Of a stretch of DNA of 64,000 nucleotides, positions 5,798-35,415 are shown piece after piece. Position numbers and translations under genes: made by a program. Source of the DNA: Candidatus Ruminimicrobiellum bubulum (lineage in GTDB: Bacteria > Elusimicrobiota > Endomicrobiia > Endomicrobiales > Endomicrobiaceae). The first letter of the stretch is position 1. Every line of letters starts with the position of its first letter. The notes under the pieces are model-generated. The model was not told the origin of the DNA, did not search any database, and saw only the letters and a list, made by a program, of their open reading frames with translations. The stretch is from NCBI GenBank assembly GCA_017651625.1, contig JAGCCP010000047.1:1-64000 (forward strand), written 5' to 3'.

Positions 5798-7003
5798 ATG
5801 GCTGAATTAAAGATAAATAACATTTACAAAGGCGACAGTTTGGAAATATTAAAAACATTTCCAAGTAAATCAGTTGATTTAATTTTTGCAGATCCTCCGT
5901 ATAATATGCAATTAAAAAATGATTTGTATAGACCAAACAATACAAAAGTTGATGGCGTTAACGATGAATGGGATAAATTTTCATCTTTTGAAGATTATGA
6001 TAATTTTTGCAAGTCTTGGCTTAAAGAATGTAAAAGGATTTTAAAGGATACAGGTTCTATTTGGGTTATAGGTTCTTATCATAATATTTATAGAGTTGGA
6101 AATATTATGTTGAATTTGGGATATTGGATATTAAATGATGTTACTTGGTATAAAACAAATCCTATGCCAAATTTTTTGGGAACAAGATTTACGAATGCAA
6201 CAGAAACTCTTTTATGGTGTTCAAAGGGAGAAAACTATAAAAAGTATACCTTTAATCATAAGTTAATGAAAAAATATAATGGTGGAAAACAGATGACATC
6301 TGTCTGGAATATTGGGCTTTGCATTGGTAGTGAAAGAATAAAAGGTGAAGATGGTAAAAAAGCGCATTCCACACAAAAACCTGAAGAATTATTAAAAAGA
6401 GTAATACTATCCACTACAAATAAATATGATATCGTATTAGATCCTTTTTTTGGCACAGGAACGACCGGTGCTGTTGCTAAAAAATTAGGCAGAAATTTTA
6501 TAGGTATAGAACAGGAACAAAAATACATTAATATTGCACAAAAAAGAATAGATAGTATTAACTTTACATTACCTGAAGCAGATTGGATAGAAGAAGAAAA
6601 AGAACAGCAAATAAAAGTTCCATTTACAGATTTGATAAAAGATAAAATTATTTCAGCTGGTGATATCTTATATACAAGGAAAAGATATAACAAAAAAGCA
6701 AAAGTTTTAGATAATGGTAATTTGCTATATGAAAATAATATAACAGGTTCTATTCATAGAATAGGTTCTTTAATTCAACAGACAGTTTCTTGTAATGGTT
6801 GGAAATTTTGGTATATCATAAAAAATAACAAAGTTATACTTTTGGATGATTTGAGAAGCAAATATTTACAAACCCATTACAACGTAGGTAAAAAGTTGGA
6901 AACAAGCGATAATTTTGAATTGGAACTTAACGAAGAACCAAAAATTTTAAAAAGTAAAAAACAAAAGAAAAATAATAAGAAAATATTAAAAAAGAAAAAA
7001 TAA
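5798..7003 (+). CDS. Adenine-specific DNA methyltransferase, M.HinfI/CcrM type (predicted GANTC)
   Basis: Beta-class N6-adenine methyltransferase. The catalytic DPPY (D32-Y35) precedes the S-adenosylmethionine motif DPFFGTGTTG near residue 215, which is the beta-class order. The blocks DEWDKF, WVIGSYHNIYRVG, LNDVTWYKTNPMPNF and RFTNATETLLW are those of the CcrM/M.HinfI group, whose members methylate GANTC. The C-terminal part (about 265-370) fits the RAMA domain found in that group. A lysine-rich tail ends the 401-residue protein. It pairs with the endonuclease just upstream, so it is a protective methylase and not a solitary cell-cycle enzyme like CcrM. The site specificity is inferred from the family. 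Confidence 0.9.
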   Translation: MAELKINNIYKGDSLEILKTFPSKSVDLIFADPPYNMQLKNDLYRPNNTKVDGVNDEWDKFSSFEDYDNFCKSWLKECKRILKDTGSIWVIGSYHNIYRVGNIMLNLGYWILNDVTWYKTNPMPNFLGTRFTNATETLLWCSKGENYKKYTFNHKLMKKYNGGKQMTSVWNIGLCIGSERIKGEDGKKAHSTQKPEELLKRVILSTTNKYDIVLDPFFGTGTTGAVAKKLGRNFIGIEQEQKYINIAQKRIDSINFTLPEADWIEEEKEQQIKVPFTDLIKDKIISAGDILYTRKRYNKKAKVLDNGNLLYENNITGSIHRIGSLIQQTVSCNGWKFWYIIKNNKVILLDDLRSKYLQTHYNVGKKLETSDNFELELNEEPKILKSKKQKKNNKKILKKKK

Positions 7004-18555: not shown

Positions 18556-21500
18556 ATGATAAAAAAATTTTTGACAACTATATTGCTTACTATATTTTGT
18601 GTGCCGTTTGTTTTTGCACAAGAAGATGTTATTTTTAGAATAAGAGATGTTGTTTTTGACGGATTACAAAATGTGAAACCGAAAACGGTTCGTTCCGAAA
18701 TTCAATTAAAAAAAGGTAAGGTATATGCCGAATCAATAGCAAGGGACGATTTAAGAACCGTTTTAGGATTGGGTTATTTTGATAATGCGGAGATCTCAGT
18801 AGACAAAGAAAGTAAAATAGTTAAGTTTACCGTAGTAGAAAAGCCATACATAAAAAAAATCGTTTTTAAAGGAAATAAACAGTTTTCTGAAGGTAAATTG
18901 AAAGGAGAACTAACTTTAAAAGAAAAAGATTTTTATAATTTTGTTGAATTGGAAGAATCAAAAAGAAAAATCCTCGCATTATATAAGGATAAAGGGTACG
19001 CCGATTGTCAAATGGAAGTATATCCTACTACCGATGAAGATACAAACACAATGACGATAACTTTTCTTATTACCGAAAATAATAAAGTTTTGATTGGCGA
19101 TTTGTATGTTGAAGGTGTAAGAAGTTTCAAAAATAAGAAAATCAAAAAATTAGCTAAAACAAAAAAGAAAAAAGTTTTTAAAGAAGAAACATTGAAAAAC
19201 GATATGTTATCTATAAAGAGATTTTATGTGAACAGAGGATTTATGGATTTTTCCGTTGATGAACCGGAAATAACCTATAACGAGATGAGAACGAAGATGT
19301 TCATAACTTTAAGAGTGAATGAAGGTGTAAGATATAAAATGGGAGATATAAATTTTGATGGTAATTCTGTTATATCTTCTAAAGATTTATCAAAACACTC
19401 TACTATAAAAAGAAACGAAATTTTTAGCCAAGAAAAGATACTCGAACTGTTAAATAAGGTGTACGATGATTATTCAAACAGAGGTTATTTACATTCTTAT
19501 ATCGAACCGGACTTTTCAAAGAGCACCGATAATTTAATGCAAGAACAAATGGGGTCCAAAAAAACGGAAAAAGAAATTTTGATACAAGATGATATCAATA
19601 ATATAGATGAACAAATAGATACGAATATAAACAGAACCTCGGCTAATAAAAAACTAAAAAAATTAAACAGAAAACTTGAAAGGACAAAATATCAAACAAG
19701 AAATAGAGAAAACGAAGTATTGAATCAAAACAGCAAAGAACAAAATATAAAAGATAAAATAGCAAATATCGAAGAGGAATTGGAATATAAAGATTATAAA
19801 GAACAAAAATATGTCGCAAAGTTGGAAAAGAAAAAAGCAAAGTTGGAAAAGAAATTATTAAAAGCGCATAAAGAATTGGAAAAGAGAGAACAAAAAGTCG
19901 TAAATCAAAAAAACAAAGAGCAATTGGTACAAAATGATATAGATGAAGTTAATCAAAAAATAGAAAACGGAGAAATCTTTGTTCTTACTGAAAGACAAGC
20001 AAAAAAGCTTGAAAAGAAAAAAAATAAATTAGAAAAAAAATTAGTAAAAGCAGAAAAAGAGAAAGAAAAATTAATTGTAAAAGAAGAAAAGAAAGTAAAA
20101 AAGCAAGAAAAGAAATTGGAAAAACAAAATAAGAAAGAAGAAAAATTACAAGCAAATCTAGATGAAGTTAAACAGCAATTAACAGAGATGAATGCGGATA
20201 ATTTGCTGGAAATGCAAGGGGAAAAACAGATAATTGAAATAGATGACAGAGAGATTGAGAATAATAGTGCTGATTATAAGAAAATAAAGAAACTTCAAAA
20301 GAAAAAAACTAAATTAGAAAATAAAATAGCAAAATTACAAACTAAAAAAATAATAGATAATGTTGTTAATGTGGATTTTAATATACAAGAAAATAGCATA
20401 GTTTACGTTGGAGATCTTTATATAGATGGCTTAACAAATACAAAAGACAATACAATAAGAAGAGAAGTCTTGCTTAGACCCGGAGATGTTTTTTCATCCG
20501 GTAAAGTAAGAAGAAGTATGGAAAAAATTTATAATTTGGGATTTATTGACGGAGCAGAACCGAATATTGCTCCTACAGGACAACCTGATATTATGAATTT
20601 AGCTTTTGCGATAACGGAAGGTAAGCCTGGTATGATAACTGCAGGAGCAGGATATTCTTCCGTTGATAAATTTGTCGGTTCTGTTCAATTGCAACATATG
20701 AATTTATTCGGTAGAGCACAGAAATTGAATTTGTTGTGGGAATTTGGTGCAAGAAGACAGAATTACGAAATAGATTGGACGGAACCTTGGTTTTTAGGAA
20801 AAGCCATGAGTTTAGGTTTGTCTTTGTATAACATAGAAAGATTGAGAGATTATCATAACACAAGCGATGCTTACAAAGAAGGAAGACTCGGAGGTTCTGT
20901 TTCGATAAGTCCGAGAGTAGATGATAAGATAGCTTTATTATTCGGTTATACTTATGAACATGTTAGAATTTTTGATATAGATGATGATGAACTTAAAGAA
21001 GAAATTATGAATGATCCTGATTTGGCAAAAGATAGAACATCCAGTGTCAGAGCACAAATAGTTTACGATACAAGAGACTATATTTACGATGCATCAAAAG
21101 GTGCAAGATATTCTTACGGTATAAATGTTGCCGGCGGACCGTTAGGTGGAAATGTTAACTATGTAAGGAATTCCGTTAGAGGAACATGGTTCTTCCCTAC
21201 GTTTTGGAAATTTGTCTTGTCAATTAATATTAATACCGGTTGGATAGAAAGTTATGGCTCTTCTTCGGACGTACCTTTATATGAAAAATATTATGTCGGC
21301 GGAGCAGATACTATAAGAGGATACAAATATAGAACAGAAGTTGGACCTTACAATGGCGGTAAAGTAATGGCTGTTGCAAATGTTGAATATAAGTTCCCTA
21401 TAGTTCAGGAAAATAAGAGAACAATATTACAGGGAGCATTCTTCTATGATATCGGTGGAACATGGAAAGATATAAATCATGTTAATTTCTGTTTCGGAAC

Positions 21501-21666
21501 AGATAACGATGAGACAAATTCTTATTATTTGAAGTCCGGTTTTGGTTTTGGTATAAGATTTGCAACTCCCGTATTCCCGTTAAGACTTGATTGGGGATAT
21601 GGTTTGAATCATAAGAGAGGGGAAGATTTACAACAATTCTACTTTACCATAGGAAACGTTTTTTAA
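18556..21666 (+). CDS. bamA: Outer membrane protein assembly factor BamA with a coiled-coil insertion
   Basis: BamA folds and inserts outer membrane beta-barrels. After a signal peptide (1-22, cut before QEDV) come five POTRA domains and a C-terminal 16-strand barrel (about 680-1036) with the VRGYKY-type motif (here TIRGYKYRTE) and an aromatic C-terminus (NVF). Typical BamA proteins are near 800 residues; this one has 1036 because residues about 325-602 are a Lys/Glu-rich coiled coil inserted before the last strand of POTRA4 (NVVNVDFNIQENS). The insert has internal repeats of about 56-62 residues (K366, K422 and K484 start similar LEKKK-type units). lpxD follows after 14 bases. The usual skp/ompH gene between bamA and lpxD is absent. 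Confidence 0.95.
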   Translation: MIKKFLTTILLTIFCVPFVFAQEDVIFRIRDVVFDGLQNVKPKTVRSEIQLKKGKVYAESIARDDLRTVLGLGYFDNAEISVDKESKIVKFTVVEKPYIKKIVFKGNKQFSEGKLKGELTLKEKDFYNFVELEESKRKILALYKDKGYADCQMEVYPTTDEDTNTMTITFLITENNKVLIGDLYVEGVRSFKNKKIKKLAKTKKKKVFKEETLKNDMLSIKRFYVNRGFMDFSVDEPEITYNEMRTKMFITLRVNEGVRYKMGDINFDGNSVISSKDLSKHSTIKRNEIFSQEKILELLNKVYDDYSNRGYLHSYIEPDFSKSTDNLMQEQMGSKKTEKEILIQDDINNIDEQIDTNINRTSANKKLKKLNRKLERTKYQTRNRENEVLNQNSKEQNIKDKIANIEEELEYKDYKEQKYVAKLEKKKAKLEKKLLKAHKELEKREQKVVNQKNKEQLVQNDIDEVNQKIENGEIFVLTERQAKKLEKKKNKLEKKLVKAEKEKEKLIVKEEKKVKKQEKKLEKQNKKEEKLQANLDEVKQQLTEMNADNLLEMQGEKQIIEIDDREIENNSADYKKIKKLQKKKTKLENKIAKLQTKKIIDNVVNVDFNIQENSIVYVGDLYIDGLTNTKDNTIRREVLLRPGDVFSSGKVRRSMEKIYNLGFIDGAEPNIAPTGQPDIMNLAFAITEGKPGMITAGAGYSSVDKFVGSVQLQHMNLFGRAQKLNLLWEFGARRQNYEIDWTEPWFLGKAMSLGLSLYNIERLRDYHNTSDAYKEGRLGGSVSISPRVDDKIALLFGYTYEHVRIFDIDDDELKEEIMNDPDLAKDRTSSVRAQIVYDTRDYIYDASKGARYSYGINVAGGPLGGNVNYVRNSVRGTWFFPTFWKFVLSININTGWIESYGSSSDVPLYEKYYVGGADTIRGYKYRTEVGPYNGGKVMAVANVEYKFPIVQENKRTILQGAFFYDIGGTWKDINHVNFCFGTDNDETNSYYLKSGFGFGIRFATPVFPLRLDWGYGLNHKRGEDLQQFYFTIGNVF

Positions 21667-21680
21667 TATAAGAGGATAAA

Positions 21681-22703
21681 ATGAACTTAACTTTAAAAGA
21701 AATTGCAGGAATTGTTAATGGTAAGTTGATAGGGCAGGAAGATTGCGTTATTGTAGGTGTTGGCGCAATACAAGATGCTGAATATGGTCATATTTCTTTT
21801 TTAGGAAATAAAAAATATACACATTTTTTAAAAGATACTAAGGCAAGTGCTGTTTTTGTTACCGAGGATATAAATGTTGAAGATTACAAAGATAAAAATC
21901 TTATAGTTGTTAAAGATCCTCAACTTGCTTTTTCAAAGATGTTGGTGATAATAGATAAACAGAGACTAGATAAAATAAAACCGGGTATTAGTCCGAAAGC
22001 TACAATAGAATCAACGGTTGTTTTAGGAAAAGATATTACTATTGGACATAATGTGGTTATTGAAGAAAACACAAAAATTGGTGACAATACAAAAATATTA
22101 GCCAATACGTTTATAGGGAGTGATGTCGTTATCGGTAAAAATTGTCTTATTTATCCGAATGTTACCATAAGAGAAAAAACGATAATAGGTGACAATTGTA
22201 TAATTCATCCGGGGGTTGTTATTGGTGGAGACGGATTTGGTTTTGCTGCTACCGGAGAAAAAATTCCGCAAATAGGTCACGTTGAAATAGGTAATAATGT
22301 TGAAATAGGTTCTAATACTACAATCGATAGAGCGGCAATAGGAAAGACATCAATAGGGAATAACACAAAGATAGATAATTTAGTAATGATTGCACACAAT
22401 GTTCAGGTCGGTGAAAATACAATAATTGTTTCTCAGGTAGGTATTGCCGGTTCAACAAAAATAGGTAATAGAGTAACCCTTGGCGGCCAAGTAGGTGTTG
22501 TCGGTCACATAACTGTTGGTGATAATGTGATGGTTGGTGCAAAAAGCGGTATAAGCGGTAATTTGAAAGGTAATCAGGTCGTTGTTGGTCATCCCTTGCA
22601 ACCATATAGAAAACACTTGGAATCTCAGGCTTTAATAAAAAGATTACCGGAGTTATTTTCTCAAGTTAGAAAGATAATAAAAAAGTTAAATATAGAGGAA
22701 TAA
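21681..22703 (+). CDS. lpxD: UDP-3-O-(3-hydroxyacyl)glucosamine N-acyltransferase
   Basis: Third enzyme of lipid A synthesis; adds the N-linked hydroxyacyl chain to UDP-acylglucosamine. The 340-residue protein has the N-terminal uridine-binding domain (ending near 100), then a left-handed beta helix of hexapeptide repeats (I-G-x-N patterns, about 105-300) and a C-terminal helix. [11 protein letters not shown] carries the catalytic histidine. A ribosome site (AGAGGA) precedes the ATG. Two bases separate it from the lpxC-fabZ fusion. Confidence 0.97.
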
Positions 22704-29808: not shown

Positions 29809-32800
29809 ATGAAAAGAATATATTTAATAATTATTTTTTTATTTTGTTCCATATATCTAATTGCAGAAAACAATGTTTCTGTAAGTAGCAGTACGACTGA
29901 TACAATAAATACTTCTACAAATACATTACAAATAAACAAATCTACAGATACAATAAATATTTCTACAAATACAACTCAAGTAAACAAATCTACAGATACA
30001 ATAAATATTTCTACAAGTACAACTCAAGTAAACCAATCTAATGATACGATAAAAATTTCAACAAATACCATAAATGGAAATGATACAGTAAATGTTTCAA
30101 GTCCCACAATAGATATAACTAAACCTTTAACATATAAGGAAGCAAAGGAAAATAAAGATATTGTGGTATCATCAACAACGGTTATACCGGATGAAAATGA
30201 TTTAGGTACATATTATTCTTCCGGCGCAATTGTCGAAAAGCCTCAAAAAGATTCTAATTACGATTTAAATATACCTACAACTACGGCACTTGGTATAGCA
30301 GGTGAAAAAGTTCTTGATAAATTAAATTTAAATAAATCAACGGATACGGCAAATACCGAACTTAATCAATCTACGACAACAGTTTCATCAGATTCATCAA
30401 AGATTGAAAATAGTGAAAATAAAGATACAAAAGAAAATAAAAAGCAGGATGATGAAAAACAATCTGAAGATAAAGATGAATCTTTTGCAAAAAAAATATT
30501 AAATAAAATACCTTTTGATTCTAAATTATTGTTGTCCGGAAGAAAGTTGATAGGAGTAAATTTTTCGGGAACAATTTACGATGAAGAAGAGTCCGGAAAA
30601 AGGGCAAACTCTACAGATTTTTCTATGGAACAAGAATTACAAATGAAAATAAAGGGAACGGTGGGAGACAGGCTTGAATTAAATGTTGATTTCGATGATA
30701 CACAAGACGATAAAAAAGATATATATATTCTTTATAAGGGAAAAGGAAATGAATTTGTAAGAGAAGCGGCTTTTGGAGATATTAATGTAGAATTACCAAG
30801 TACCGAATTTTCCGGATATTCAAAAGAACTGTTCGGTGCAAAAATAGATACTCAATATAAGGGATTAAAAACAAGAGCTTTTTTCTCTAAAACCAAAGGT
30901 TATTCAGAAAGTAAACAATTTAAAGGCAGCAGTAAAACCGAGAAAAAAATTATAGCTGATACTTCTTATATAAAATATAAATATTATTCGATCATTAAAG
31001 AGGGTAGTACAAAAACAATAAAGAATGATACTGCAAAAGTATATTTGGATAAAATAAAAACTACCGCCAGCGATTATGTCGTAATAACAATGGATACGGA
31101 ATTGCATTATATGAAAAATTTATCGTATACCCCTCTGTATAAAGGAAATTTTATAAAACTTACCGCAGGAACGGATTATACGATAGATTATACTACCGGT
31201 ATACTTACATTTAAAAGTACTTTGTCTGCACAGTATGTTGTAGCTATCGACTACCAATATACGGATGGTACTTGGTTATCCGATGAAACAGGAGGAAATC
31301 CTCAAGTAATAAAGGATACAAATAATACAGATGCACTATCTACGGAAGTTCATACTTTTTACAGCTTGGGAAACTATCAAATTACAAAATACAACGGAAG
31401 AGATAATTTTATATTGGAAGTTAGGGATTTGAATGATACTATTCCTTCTGTTATAGATGGAGGGAAACTTGTTCCTAAGTTTCCGAATATTGATGGCTAT
31501 GATGCAAATATCATAGTTGATTATGATAACGGAGTATTTAATTTACAACCCGTAACCGGTAAACCTTTACACGATGATTTATATACATCAAATACACATA
31601 AATATAATTTTGTGGCACAATATGAATATAAAGTGAAAATTTTTAATTTGAGAACAGGTATTGTCCCGATGTCGGAAAAAGTTGTTGCAAACGGTAAAAC
31701 TTTAAAAATAAACGAAGATTATATGTTGGACTACGATGTTGGTATATTAACTATTTTAAAAGACGAATATATTAACAATGATACTGTTATAGATGTATCT
31801 TACGATTATTCTCCGTTGGGGGGCGCTTCTGCCGGTTCTACTCTTGTCGGTGTTCGCTCGCAATATGATTTTACCGATAAAATTTCATTGGGAGGAAGTT
31901 TTATTTATGAGTTTGCGGCGGAAGATACAAAACTTCCGGATATATATTCCGCACCTTCAAGCACCCTTGTAGGTGAAGTTGATGCAAAAGTAAAAAATGT
32001 AAAAATAACGGATAGCTTAAGTATATCCGCAAATGCCGAATATGCAACGAGTAAATATGTTCAAAATACTACAGGCAAAGCTATTATAGAATCTATGGAA
32101 AGTGCAAAACAAGATGACAGCTTTTCTTTAATAGACGATAACTGGTTTTATGCTGCCACACCTAAAGATGATGTACATGAATACCATACAAATTCAATAA
32201 CTTGGAAAAATTATGATATAGAAAAGAAGGATATAGATAAAAATTTGGAAATTATATCCGGAGAAAAACAACAAGTTATGGATGTGAATTATAATTTAAC
32301 TTCATATGCTTATGCATCAATAGGTCAGATTGTTTCTGCCGCAGGGTATGATTTTTCAAAAAAATTATATTTGGAAGTTTGGATAAAAGCAAATTTCGCA
32401 CAAGTGAATGTAAGACTCGATTTGGCATCTTCCATAGATGAAGATTCTGATCAGAATAATCAACTCGGAACAGAAGATACAAACGGTGACGGAATAATAA
32501 GTCCTTGGGAAGATATAGGTAGAGACTTTATAAATCCGGATCATTCAATATCAAAAATCGGAGCAAATAACGGAAGACTCGATACCGAAGATTTGAACGG
32601 CAATAACAGGTTAGACAGGTATGAAACGATTATAAAAACTTTCAATTTAGAAGCATATGCCGATATTACAAAAACTTCTTGGCAAAGAATACAAATTCCG
32701 CTTGATATTACTGACACCGATATAGAAAAATGGAAAACTGTAAGAATTACAAGATTAACTATTAGTCGTAATATTTCGGAATGCGAAGGCAAATTAACAA

Positions 32801-35415
32801 TTGGTAAAATTTCGGTTGTAGGAAATAAATGGACAAAAGAACTGTCTGATTCTTCAAATGAGAGTGAAATTTTTTCCATAGGTAGGGATAATCCTCAATA
32901 TGTTTCACTTTTAACAAATTCATATTACAGAGACTTATATGATATAGATAGTGACTCAAAAAGGGACGAACAAGCATTGGCAATCACTTATGAGTCGAAT
33001 AAAAGTTCCGATACTTTTTTTGCAAGAGCAACATATAGTTCCGGTTTTGATATATCGAATTATGAAAAATTTAAATTCTTCTTGTATATTAAAGAAACAA
33101 CTGCAATAACTCCCGATGAAAGTCGTTTCATAATGAGAGTCGGAGGAGATAATGCCAATTATTTTGAATATTCTATCCCGATAACCGATGACATGAAAGG
33201 TAAATGGAATGTGTTAGAAATTAAACAACCGGGGTATGGTGTAAATACGGAATGGGCTACGGACGATCCTAATGCAGAAATTACAAAAGTCGGTGAGCCG
33301 AGTTTACAGAAAGTTGCATTTATTGAAACCGGAGTCATAACAAATGGCGCGGATAAAGGTGAAATTTGGGTAAATGAAATACATGTTACCGACGCAAAAA
33401 GTAAAGATGGTAACGCATGGAAAACTGATTTTAGTATAAATTGGGCAGGTAGAGGAGCAATAGGGGCTTTAAATGTTAATTTGTATAGAAAAGGAATAGG
33501 CCAAGATTTTGAAACTTTTGCACCGGGAACTTACGATAGAGAATTGTTGGAAGATTCCGCAGAACTTAATTTTAATGGTATTAATATTGCAGGAACTCAA
33601 GTCTTACCGATAAAAGCTTCGCTGACAAAAACAAAAACAGTTACACCTCTTGCTTTGCAGAATACATCGGATCAGGTTTCCGTATTGGATGAAGGTAAAG
33701 TTATTTCCTATGTCGGAAATGTTAACACCGTATTATCTGCAGGAACAGATTTGCCTAAAGTTACGCTTGAATATAACAGGTTTATTAAAGATACGGAAAA
33801 TATAGAAAGACTTGAAGATAAAGAAACTATTTCCGCAAATGTGGTTTATTTAAATCCTTTGGAATTTGAATTCTTACCTACAAGTCTTGTTGGAGATTAC
33901 AAAATAAGTAATTCTACATATAAGGTTTATCCGACGGAAAAAATAGAAGATACTAATGCTTTTCTTGATTTGGATACAATGAGAAAATATATGGAAGTAG
34001 AAGATTTTCTAACGTTGGAAAAAACAGAAACCTGGGGATTAAAAGCACCTTTTTCTTTCTTTGATAAAGTTATTTTTTCACCGGCATATCTTATATCGAG
34101 AGTTAACGAAAAAAACAAAGAATATTTTGAAAATGAAGAAATTTTTTATGATAAATCTTTGAACCAAGATATAGGTGCAAGTTTAAATTTTAAAGTTGCA
34201 AAATGGTTCCAACCGAATATAATTTATAGTTTAAATACCGTGGAAACTTACGATTTAACTTACAGCAGTACTTCATTAAATAAAGTTTATCCCGGACAAA
34301 CAAAAGCTATAGACAGAGTCGGAACAACGGAATTTACATGGAACCTTCAAGCAAGAGATATTGTTAACAGCAAATATTTGAAGAGCTTAACATTTACTAC
34401 ATCTTACAGATTGCAGGATTCGGATTCTTATACAAATATTGAAAAAGGATTTTCTTCTATAGGTATTGCAACCGATAAATTGTGGATAAGAGATAATCTT
34501 TTAAAAGAAATACAACCGGTTTATTCAACATCATCTTATACCGTTAAAACAGTTTTGAAAAGAGATGATAGAAGAATTATGGGAAGATATAATCCTTTTG
34601 AGGCTTTTGATTTGAAAGGAAAACTTTTACCGATAAAAACAATGACTATGAGTTTTACTTTTACAGATGGAGAAGAAGAATCGTACAGTACAGGAACAAC
34701 AAAAGATTCTTATACGAAAACTTGGCCTGATATTCTTATAGGTATGAGTAGATTTGAAAAATTGTTCGGTAAAAGTTGGATGAGTGATACACAGCTTAAT
34801 TTAAAATACAATAAAAAAACAACTACTGTTTCAGGTGTGTCGTATGGTGATAGTGTTATGTTCGGAGGAGATTATAAATTAAAAGTTATAAAAAAGTATG
34901 ATTTGCTTTTTTCCGCTGATGTTACATCAAGTCAGGAATATGATACCGAACAAAATGTTTTAAAACAAGAGGGGAAAATAACTAATTGGGCCGTGCAGAT
35001 TGCCACATATGTTAAACAATGGAGATTTAGTTTGAGATATGATAATTCTCAAAATTGGACCAAGAATTCTAAAGGAAATCTTGCCACACAGATTTTTTCA
35101 AATGCTGTAAACGGTCAAGCGACATCAGATTTATTATTCCCGACGGGAATAAAATTGCCTTTAATAGGAAATATTCCGTTAAAAAACAGATTGTTATTTG
35201 AATCTAATGTGTTTTATAATACACAAAGTTCTGCAGTAGATGTTGAAGCTGCAAATTATCAAAATTTCGGATTGAAATTGGCTGGAGATTATGAGATATC
35301 CAAAAACTTTAGGTTTGCTTTGGGAGCCAGTTTTTCAAGATTTTTGTATACCTATGTTCCGGAACAAAATTATACAAATATAGAGCTTTCTAGTAAGTTA
35401 ACCATACAATTCTAA
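29809..35415 (+). CDS. SprA-like giant outer membrane protein
   Basis: A 1868-residue secreted protein. After a signal peptide (about 1-20) comes a low-complexity Ser/Thr/Asn region with four 16-residue repeats, then an acidic stretch (about 200-225). The block at about 285-365 matches the SprA family: QELQMKIKGTVGDRLELNVD, DDTQDDKKDIYILYKG, REAAFGDINVELPSTEFSGYSKELFGAK. The remainder is beta-rich and the protein ends with an aromatic residue (TIQF), like an outer membrane barrel. In Bacteroidota SprA is the very large type IX secretion translocon. Related proteins exist in other phyla, where the function is not established. No other T9SS gene is visible nearby. An EF-hand-like Asp/Asn repeat region is present near 900-935. 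Confidence 0.75.
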   Translation: MKRIYLIIIFLFCSIYLIAENNVSVSSSTTDTINTSTNTLQINKSTDTINISTNTTQVNKSTDTINISTSTTQVNQSNDTIKISTNTINGNDTVNVSSPTIDITKPLTYKEAKENKDIVVSSTTVIPDENDLGTYYSSGAIVEKPQKDSNYDLNIPTTTALGIAGEKVLDKLNLNKSTDTANTELNQSTTTVSSDSSKIENSENKDTKENKKQDDEKQSEDKDESFAKKILNKIPFDSKLLLSGRKLIGVNFSGTIYDEEESGKRANSTDFSMEQELQMKIKGTVGDRLELNVDFDDTQDDKKDIYILYKGKGNEFVREAAFGDINVELPSTEFSGYSKELFGAKIDTQYKGLKTRAFFSKTKGYSESKQFKGSSKTEKKIIADTSYIKYKYYSIIKEGSTKTIKNDTAKVYLDKIKTTASDYVVITMDTELHYMKNLSYTPLYKGNFIKLTAGTDYTIDYTTGILTFKSTLSAQYVVAIDYQYTDGTWLSDETGGNPQVIKDTNNTDALSTEVHTFYSLGNYQITKYNGRDNFILEVRDLNDTIPSVIDGGKLVPKFPNIDGYDANIIVDYDNGVFNLQPVTGKPLHDDLYTSNTHKYNFVAQYEYKVKIFNLRTGIVPMSEKVVANGKTLKINEDYMLDYDVGILTILKDEYINNDTVIDVSYDYSPLGGASAGSTLVGVRSQYDFTDKISLGGSFIYEFAAEDTKLPDIYSAPSSTLVGEVDAKVKNVKITDSLSISANAEYATSKYVQNTTGKAIIESMESAKQDDSFSLIDDNWFYAATPKDDVHEYHTNSITWKNYDIEKKDIDKNLEIISGEKQQVMDVNYNLTSYAYASIGQIVSAAGYDFSKKLYLEVWIKANFAQVNVRLDLASSIDEDSDQNNQLGTEDTNGDGIISPWEDIGRDFINPDHSISKIGANNGRLDTEDLNGNNRLDRYETIIKTFNLEAYADITKTSWQRIQIPLDITDTDIEKWKTVRITRLTISRNISECEGKLTIGKISVVGNKWTKELSDSSNESEIFSIGRDNPQYVSLLTNSYYRDLYDIDSDSKRDEQALAITYESNKSSDTFFARATYSSGFDISNYEKFKFFLYIKETTAITPDESRFIMRVGGDNANYFEYSIPITDDMKGKWNVLEIKQPGYGVNTEWATDDPNAEITKVGEPSLQKVAFIETGVITNGADKGEIWVNEIHVTDAKSKDGNAWKTDFSINWAGRGAIGALNVNLYRKGIGQDFETFAPGTYDRELLEDSAELNFNGINIAGTQVLPIKASLTKTKTVTPLALQNTSDQVSVLDEGKVISYVGNVNTVLSAGTDLPKVTLEYNRFIKDTENIERLEDKETISANVVYLNPLEFEFLPTSLVGDYKISNSTYKVYPTEKIEDTNAFLDLDTMRKYMEVEDFLTLEKTETWGLKAPFSFFDKVIFSPAYLISRVNEKNKEYFENEEIFYDKSLNQDIGASLNFKVAKWFQPNIIYSLNTVETYDLTYSSTSLNKVYPGQTKAIDRVGTTEFTWNLQARDIVNSKYLKSLTFTTSYRLQDSDSYTNIEKGFSSIGIATDKLWIRDNLLKEIQPVYSTSSYTVKTVLKRDDRRIMGRYNPFEAFDLKGKLLPIKTMTMSFTFTDGEEESYSTGTTKDSYTKTWPDILIGMSRFEKLFGKSWMSDTQLNLKYNKKTTTVSGVSYGDSVMFGGDYKLKVIKKYDLLFSADVTSSQEYDTEQNVLKQEGKITNWAVQIATYVKQWRFSLRYDNSQNWTKNSKGNLATQIFSNAVNGQATSDLLFPTGIKLPLIGNIPLKNRLLFESNVFYNTQSSAVDVEAANYQNFGLKLAGDYEISKNFRFALGASFSRFLYTYVPEQNYTNIELSSKLTIQF
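29896..30087 (+). repeat. Four tandem 48-bp repeats within the SprA-like gene
   Basis: Units begin at 29896, 29944, 29992 and 30040 and encode variants of TDTINISTNTTQVNKS. Units two and three are nearly identical at the DNA level and the fourth is degenerate. The 48-bp period keeps the frame, so copy-number change would lengthen or shorten the exposed N-terminal linker without breaking the gene. Confidence 0.85.

Follow-up and report, generated by a model that had tools for sequence, protein, structure and literature searches.

A predicted coiled-coil domain within POTRA4 of BamA in Ruminimicrobiellum, a lineage that has lost Skp

BamA is an essential protein and an antibiotic target, and few outer-membrane proteins are as conserved; Skp (OmpH) is a coiled-coil periplasmic chaperone of outer-membrane proteins (OMPs). 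The tentacles of E. coli Skp are two-helix coiled coils with a positive charge, whose contacts with OMPs are both electrostatic and hydrophobic (PMC8573040), and BamA receives clients directly from Skp (PMC5692476). Bacteroidota possess lineage-specific BAM components, among them BamP, a separate protein whose linker enters the barrel (PMC12611786). Within the family Endomicrobiaceae, BamBCD have been reported absent from all members, and peptidoglycan pathways are conserved across most of them (PMC11257099).

We analyzed a 64,000-nucleotide stretch of Candidatus Ruminimicrobiellum bubulum DNA (the window), whose close related loci come from sheep, goat and rumen genomes. The window contains a bamA gene in the order rpoD-bamA-lpxD-lpxC/fabZ-lpxA-lpxI, with the following features.

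18556..21666, forward strand: bamA, encoding 1036 aa: signal peptide, five POTRAs, Omp85 barrel (ORF, Pfam, NCBIfam, Foldseek)
19333..19521, forward strand: first part of POTRA4 (beta1, alpha1, alpha2, beta2), residues 260-322 (AlphaFold secondary structure)
19522..20361, forward strand: predicted coiled-coil insert in the POTRA4 beta2-beta3 turn, residues 323-602 (from predicted strand boundaries)
20362..20388, forward strand: POTRA4 beta3 after the insert, residues 603-611 (AlphaFold)
20401..20619, forward strand: POTRA5, residues 616-688 (Pfam, AlphaFold)
20701..21663, forward strand: Omp85 barrel, residues 716-1036 (Pfam)
21667..21680, forward strand: bamA-lpxD junction of 14 bp, the position of skp (ompH) in most relatives (gene order, profile searches)
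21681..22703, forward strand: lpxD, followed by lpxC-fabZ, lpxA and lpxI (Pfam)

Judged from its sequence, the product of 18556-21666 is a genuine and complete BamA, with a role in OMP assembly in vivo that is assigned from homology. The full-length protein scores 477.9 bits against the NCBIfam equivalog model TIGR03303 (OM_YaeT; curated cut-off 297), and the best Foldseek matches of its model are BamA proteins of the BAM complex (E about 2e-50). Pfam recovers five POTRA domains and Omp85, and signal peptide, POTRAs and barrel are all intact; Pfam, model strands and BAM-complex matches together indicate five POTRAs and a 16-stranded Omp85 barrel, an assignment made on the overall fold and not on a strand-by-strand count. 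The protein resembles BamA of E. coli and Neisseria (YaeT, Omp85 family) in its five POTRAs and barrel, its whole-protein Foldseek match and its lpxD/lipid A neighborhood, but has 280 extra residues in the POTRA4 turn that are absent from the comparable BamAs examined.

AlphaFold places the elements of POTRA4 at residues 261-268 (strand), 275-279 and 292-308 (helices) and 315-322 (strand). Since beta2 (315-322) is followed by the insert and then by beta3 (603-611), the insert sits in the beta2-beta3 turn, which elsewhere has 5-6 residues (outgroup BamAs) or 4-5 residues (the other four POTRAs of the window BamA). A preliminary description had put a coiled coil at 19528-20361, which corresponds to residues 325-602 of the 1036-aa ORF at 18556-21666, ahead of the final POTRA4 strand and with POTRA and barrel parts otherwise intact; the model and the domain searches agree with it on each of these points.

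Among the eight Ruminimicrobiellum species whose bamA locus could be read, seven carry the insert in frame, at a length of 260-285 residues, whereas the eighth (G006) has 24 residues at the POTRA4 turn. The earlier view that neither frameshift nor misassembly is involved is upheld by these same-genus species: with seven separately assembled species genomes sharing one frame, no internal stop and conserved POTRA4 strands on either side, an assembly error, frameshift or mis-called ORF is extremely improbable. The same turn has 5, 6, 22, 22 and 34 residues in sister genera and 5-6 in other relatives. Among the relatives compared, large growth of this turn is confined to the ruminant Endomicrobiaceae clade. 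A tree built without the insert places G006 as sister of the seven insert carriers (support 92/85), which supports a single, recent gain in the ancestor from which most Ruminimicrobiellum species descend. Among the matches listed for 160 genomes sampled across the phylum, only Ruminimicrobiellum has a BamA reading frame longer than 1000 aa, and the open literature searched (preprints and subscription papers lay outside its scope) describes no BamA whose POTRA domains contain an inserted coiled coil. The arm-bearing BamA is a new form of a known protein, with none like it in the open literature or the relatives sampled.

Comparison of five close species yields dN/dS values of 0.12-0.17 for the insert versus 0.03-0.08 for the remainder of BamA; values for the insert reach 0.52 in the most divergent pairs, where synonymous sites are near saturation. 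The insert is thus under purifying selection, yet less constrained than the rest of the protein. Its length stays at 260-285 residues while identity falls to about 35-40%, and heptad periodicity persists in the most diverged copies (G009, p = 0.001; G005, p = 0.019).

The composition noted earlier, rich in lysine and glutamate, is borne out by 66 K and 42 E among 278 residues, and across the seven species the net charge of the insert lies between about +15 and +32, with a pI of 9.4-9.8. K+E reaches 52% in the best 100-residue stretch of the insert and at most 38% in the other ORFs of the 46 window ORFs examined. A genome-wide expansion of Lys-rich sequence was rejected: no other window ORF shows a comparable K+E level, and the flanking dnaG, rpoD, lpxD and lpxC-fabZ have the same length as in relatives. 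Hydrophobic residues of the insert recur with a 3.5-residue period (shuffle p = 0.0025), in keeping with the heptad-like character first described. The repeats reported near K366, K422 and K484 also proved real: none of 1000 shuffles scores as high as the comparison of unit 1 with unit 2 or of unit 2 with unit 3. Near residue 576 lies an incomplete fourth unit that resembles unit 2 (p = 0.003) and unit 3 (p = 0.002). On these comparisons the units near 366, 422 and 484 share a common descent or have strongly converged, and they form a diverged internal repeat. A copy from a paralogue elsewhere was considered and rejected, as a search of the organism's own genome returns only the insert itself at E <= 0.001; growth within the gene by duplication is therefore favored. 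The insert has no sequence match in Pfam, NCBIfam or the PDB, apart from one sub-threshold match to an archaeal coiled-coil family.

AlphaFold2 was run on full-length BamA (28-sequence alignment, mean pLDDT 79) and on a fragment, where a shallow alignment led to loss of the POTRA4 fold, so only the helical part of that second model was used. The two models agree on five helices in the insert, with pLDDT up to 97.

19567..19623, forward strand: predicted insert helix 1, residues 338-356, net charge -6 (both AlphaFold models)
19633..19782, forward strand: predicted insert helix 2, residues 360-409, repeat unit 1 (pLDDT mostly 90-97, second model)
19804..19968, forward strand: predicted insert helix 3, residues 417-471, repeat unit 2 (pLDDT mostly 90-97, second model)
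19990..20205, forward strand: predicted insert helix 4, residues 479-550, repeat unit 3, lengthened (confidence drops towards the end)
20257..20343, forward strand: predicted insert helix 5, residues 568-596, partial repeat unit 4 (both AlphaFold models)

In the fragment model pLDDT is mostly 90-97 for about residues 336-505 and lower towards 550; residues 551-570 have low confidence in both models. A continuous heptad fits the helices at 360-409 (p = 0.0012) and 417-471 (p = 0.0002), and is borderline in helices 1, 4 and 5 (p = 0.07-0.09; helix 4 continuous-heptad p = 0.07). Predicted helices of the insert carry the a/d hydrophobic pattern of coiled coils, and modeling of the whole protein makes the insert helical, not disordered. 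The insert is thus predicted to be a helical coiled-coil domain. Of the coiled-coil hairpin originally proposed, a long coiled-coil domain within the POTRA4 beta2-beta3 hairpin agrees with both models and with conservation, whereas a simple two-helix form does not: the predicted helices number five, of about 19, 50, 55, 72 and 29 residues. At a helix rise of 0.15 nm per residue, those of 55-72 residues span about 8-11 nm, so that the rod first envisaged could perhaps reach the cell wall but is unlikely to reach the inner membrane. Foldseek searches with the insert found nothing significant, just generic long coiled coils (tektins, PI3K p85 iSH2, SH3BP5; all E > 0.1) that share an elongated helical shape and imply no kinship.

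We also compared the surroundings of bamA. By gene order and profiles, skp separates bamA from lpxD in Endomicrobium and in relatives at the level of order and class, and it is the usual gene at this site in the rest of the phylum. No Skp was found in the sampled Ruminimicrobiellum, Proruminimicrobium, Praeruminimicrobium and G013-genus genomes using the Pfam model, the family's own Skp profile (positive controls matched at 5e-52 to 3e-84) and gene order, and PF03938 (OmpH) has zero matches anywhere in the source genome. Throughout this Skp-less ruminant clade, as sampled, bamA directly adjoins lpxD. Sister genera and G006 have neither Skp nor arm; Skp was lost before the arm arose, and the arm evolved in a lineage already without it. 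In at least two Endomicrobiellum loci (L055, L057) Skp is undetected and BamA is ordinary, so loss of Skp is insufficient for an arm, and a single gain of the arm does not establish that loss as its cause.

The insert shares with Skp (PF03938) coiled-coil helical arms and, by inference for the insert, the step of OMP assembly, and it belongs to the protein that skp adjoins in relatives. It differs from Skp in having no trimerization beta-barrel (the models are helical only) and no sequence or profile similarity, and in being covalently part of BamA. That the insert is a fused skp was rejected because Skp loss predates it and because profile and fold do not match (hhalign probability of 0.1 against the family Skp; no Skp-like fold listed by Foldseek).

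Other envelope-assembly components were surveyed as well. The YfiO/BamD model has no match in Ruminimicrobiellum. In order-level relatives, BamD was rejected for the YfiO-like matches of 230-250 aa that were read, which resemble CpoB. The YfiO matches at L105-L113, L115 and L117-L119 are coiled-coil and TPR proteins resembling CpoB/YbgF, and a BamD search with the YfiO model is therefore misleading in Elusimicrobiota. SurA-like proteins are present in all genomes compared and seem multiplied in Ruminimicrobiellum, whose most complete genomes (G000 included) have 5 SurA_N_3 matches, against mostly 3 (range mostly 2-4) in relatives. OmpA-type peptidoglycan-binding domain proteins occur in every genome tested.

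Two further window genes deserve mention. The forward-strand ORF at 29809-35415 encodes a protein of 1868 aa that begins with a Ser/Thr-rich stretch and has no Pfam match; PF14349 gives no match, but its control is silent too. The protein matches the model of the T9SS outer-membrane translocon SprA/Sov (TIGR04189) at E 2e-36, with a score of 124.7 bits that falls short of the curated 200, and is by this match a divergent SprA-like protein in Elusimicrobiota. At 5798-7003 (forward strand) lies a gene for a DNA methylase (N6_N4_Mtase) that also carries a RAMA domain.

As to function, we tentatively favor, at somewhat less than an even chance, a reading in which the POTRA4 turn of BamA has grown into a basic coiled-coil arm of ~280 residues that contacts unfolded OMPs and partly covers the job of Skp. 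A helix-plus-turn unit of ~60 residues would have been duplicated within the turn, building a basic domain that is mostly coiled coil. The resulting periplasmic arm, fixed to BAM, would contact arriving unfolded OMPs, keep them from aggregating or guide them, and take up part of the work of Skp, whose gene had already been lost next door. Insertion, site, single origin, selective constraint and skp loss come from the analyses above, while substrate contact and the stand-in role are drawn by analogy from the charge and binding of Skp tentacles (PMC8573040) and from Skp-to-BamA client transfer (PMC5692476). Against a stand-in role, the insert is basic, unlike the Skp proteins of the family, which range from acidic to nearly neutral (pI 5.0-6.2), and statistically a single gain of an arm in a single clade without Skp says little for replacement. 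The extra SurA-like proteins are possibly another way to compensate for Skp loss. The chaperone idea of the preliminary description may be the one best backed by context, with the arm as a stand-in for lost Skp and not as a docking site. It is more doubtful that BamA internalized an OMP-chaperone function, with an arm that evolved from scratch inside POTRA4 after Skp loss and holds or delivers substrates in cis.

Other roles for the insert can be weighed against this chaperone-like one. The preliminary description saw a long rod and listed several functions that it might have; a stiff rod of ~8-11 nm might prop BAM against peptidoglycan or bind it electrostatically. Long predicted helices, a strongly basic arm that could bind the acidic cell wall and peptidoglycan pathways kept in most of the family (PMC11257099) are consistent with this, but Pfam detects no known peptidoglycan-binding domain in the insert, five helices with two low-confidence stretches fit a single straight rod poorly, and OmpA-type anchoring proteins are plentiful enough to make a rod unnecessary. 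We consider it unlikely. An arm that makes up for the reportedly missing BamB/C/D by holding partners or bracing the POTRA ring, or one that joins BamA molecules, seems similarly improbable. In its favor, coiled coils often mediate protein contacts, BamBCD are reported absent (PMC11257099) and the genus lacks a YfiO/BamD match. POTRA4-5 can bind lineage-specific subunits, as BamP does at POTRA4 and 5 in Bacteroidota (PMC12611786), likewise a clade-restricted addition at this site, although the Ruminimicrobiellum addition lies inside BamA and is a predicted coiled coil. Yet the reported absence of BamBCD (PMC11257099) is family-wide while the arm occurs in Ruminimicrobiellum only, and no partner gene was identified as gained or lost together with it.

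The insert may instead be a Lys-rich helical repeat that expanded with little benefit, its constraint reflecting only solubility and the avoidance of harm to BamA. The same turn varies among arm-less neighbors (22, 22, 24 and 34 residues), and the evolutionary rate of the insert is several times that of the remaining BamA. Linker insertions in E. coli POTRA4 were recovered, none of them severe (PMC3871556), which explains why growth was possible at all and also supports tolerated growth. Set against this are an insert dN/dS well below 1, a length held at 260-285 residues despite divergence, periodicity still significant in G009 and G005, and an arm that none of the seven species has lost since it arose; we likewise give tolerated growth a low probability.

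The original observation is confirmed and the structure of the arm appears well predicted by the models; its function, including the chaperone-like role that we favor, we infer. To our knowledge, the handover of unfolded proteins from chaperones to POTRA domains is still poorly understood. An arm-bearing BamA in a lineage that has lost Skp and reportedly lacks BamBCD offers a natural test of whether chaperone and POTRA functions are exchangeable, with the arm-less sister species G006 as a natural near-control.
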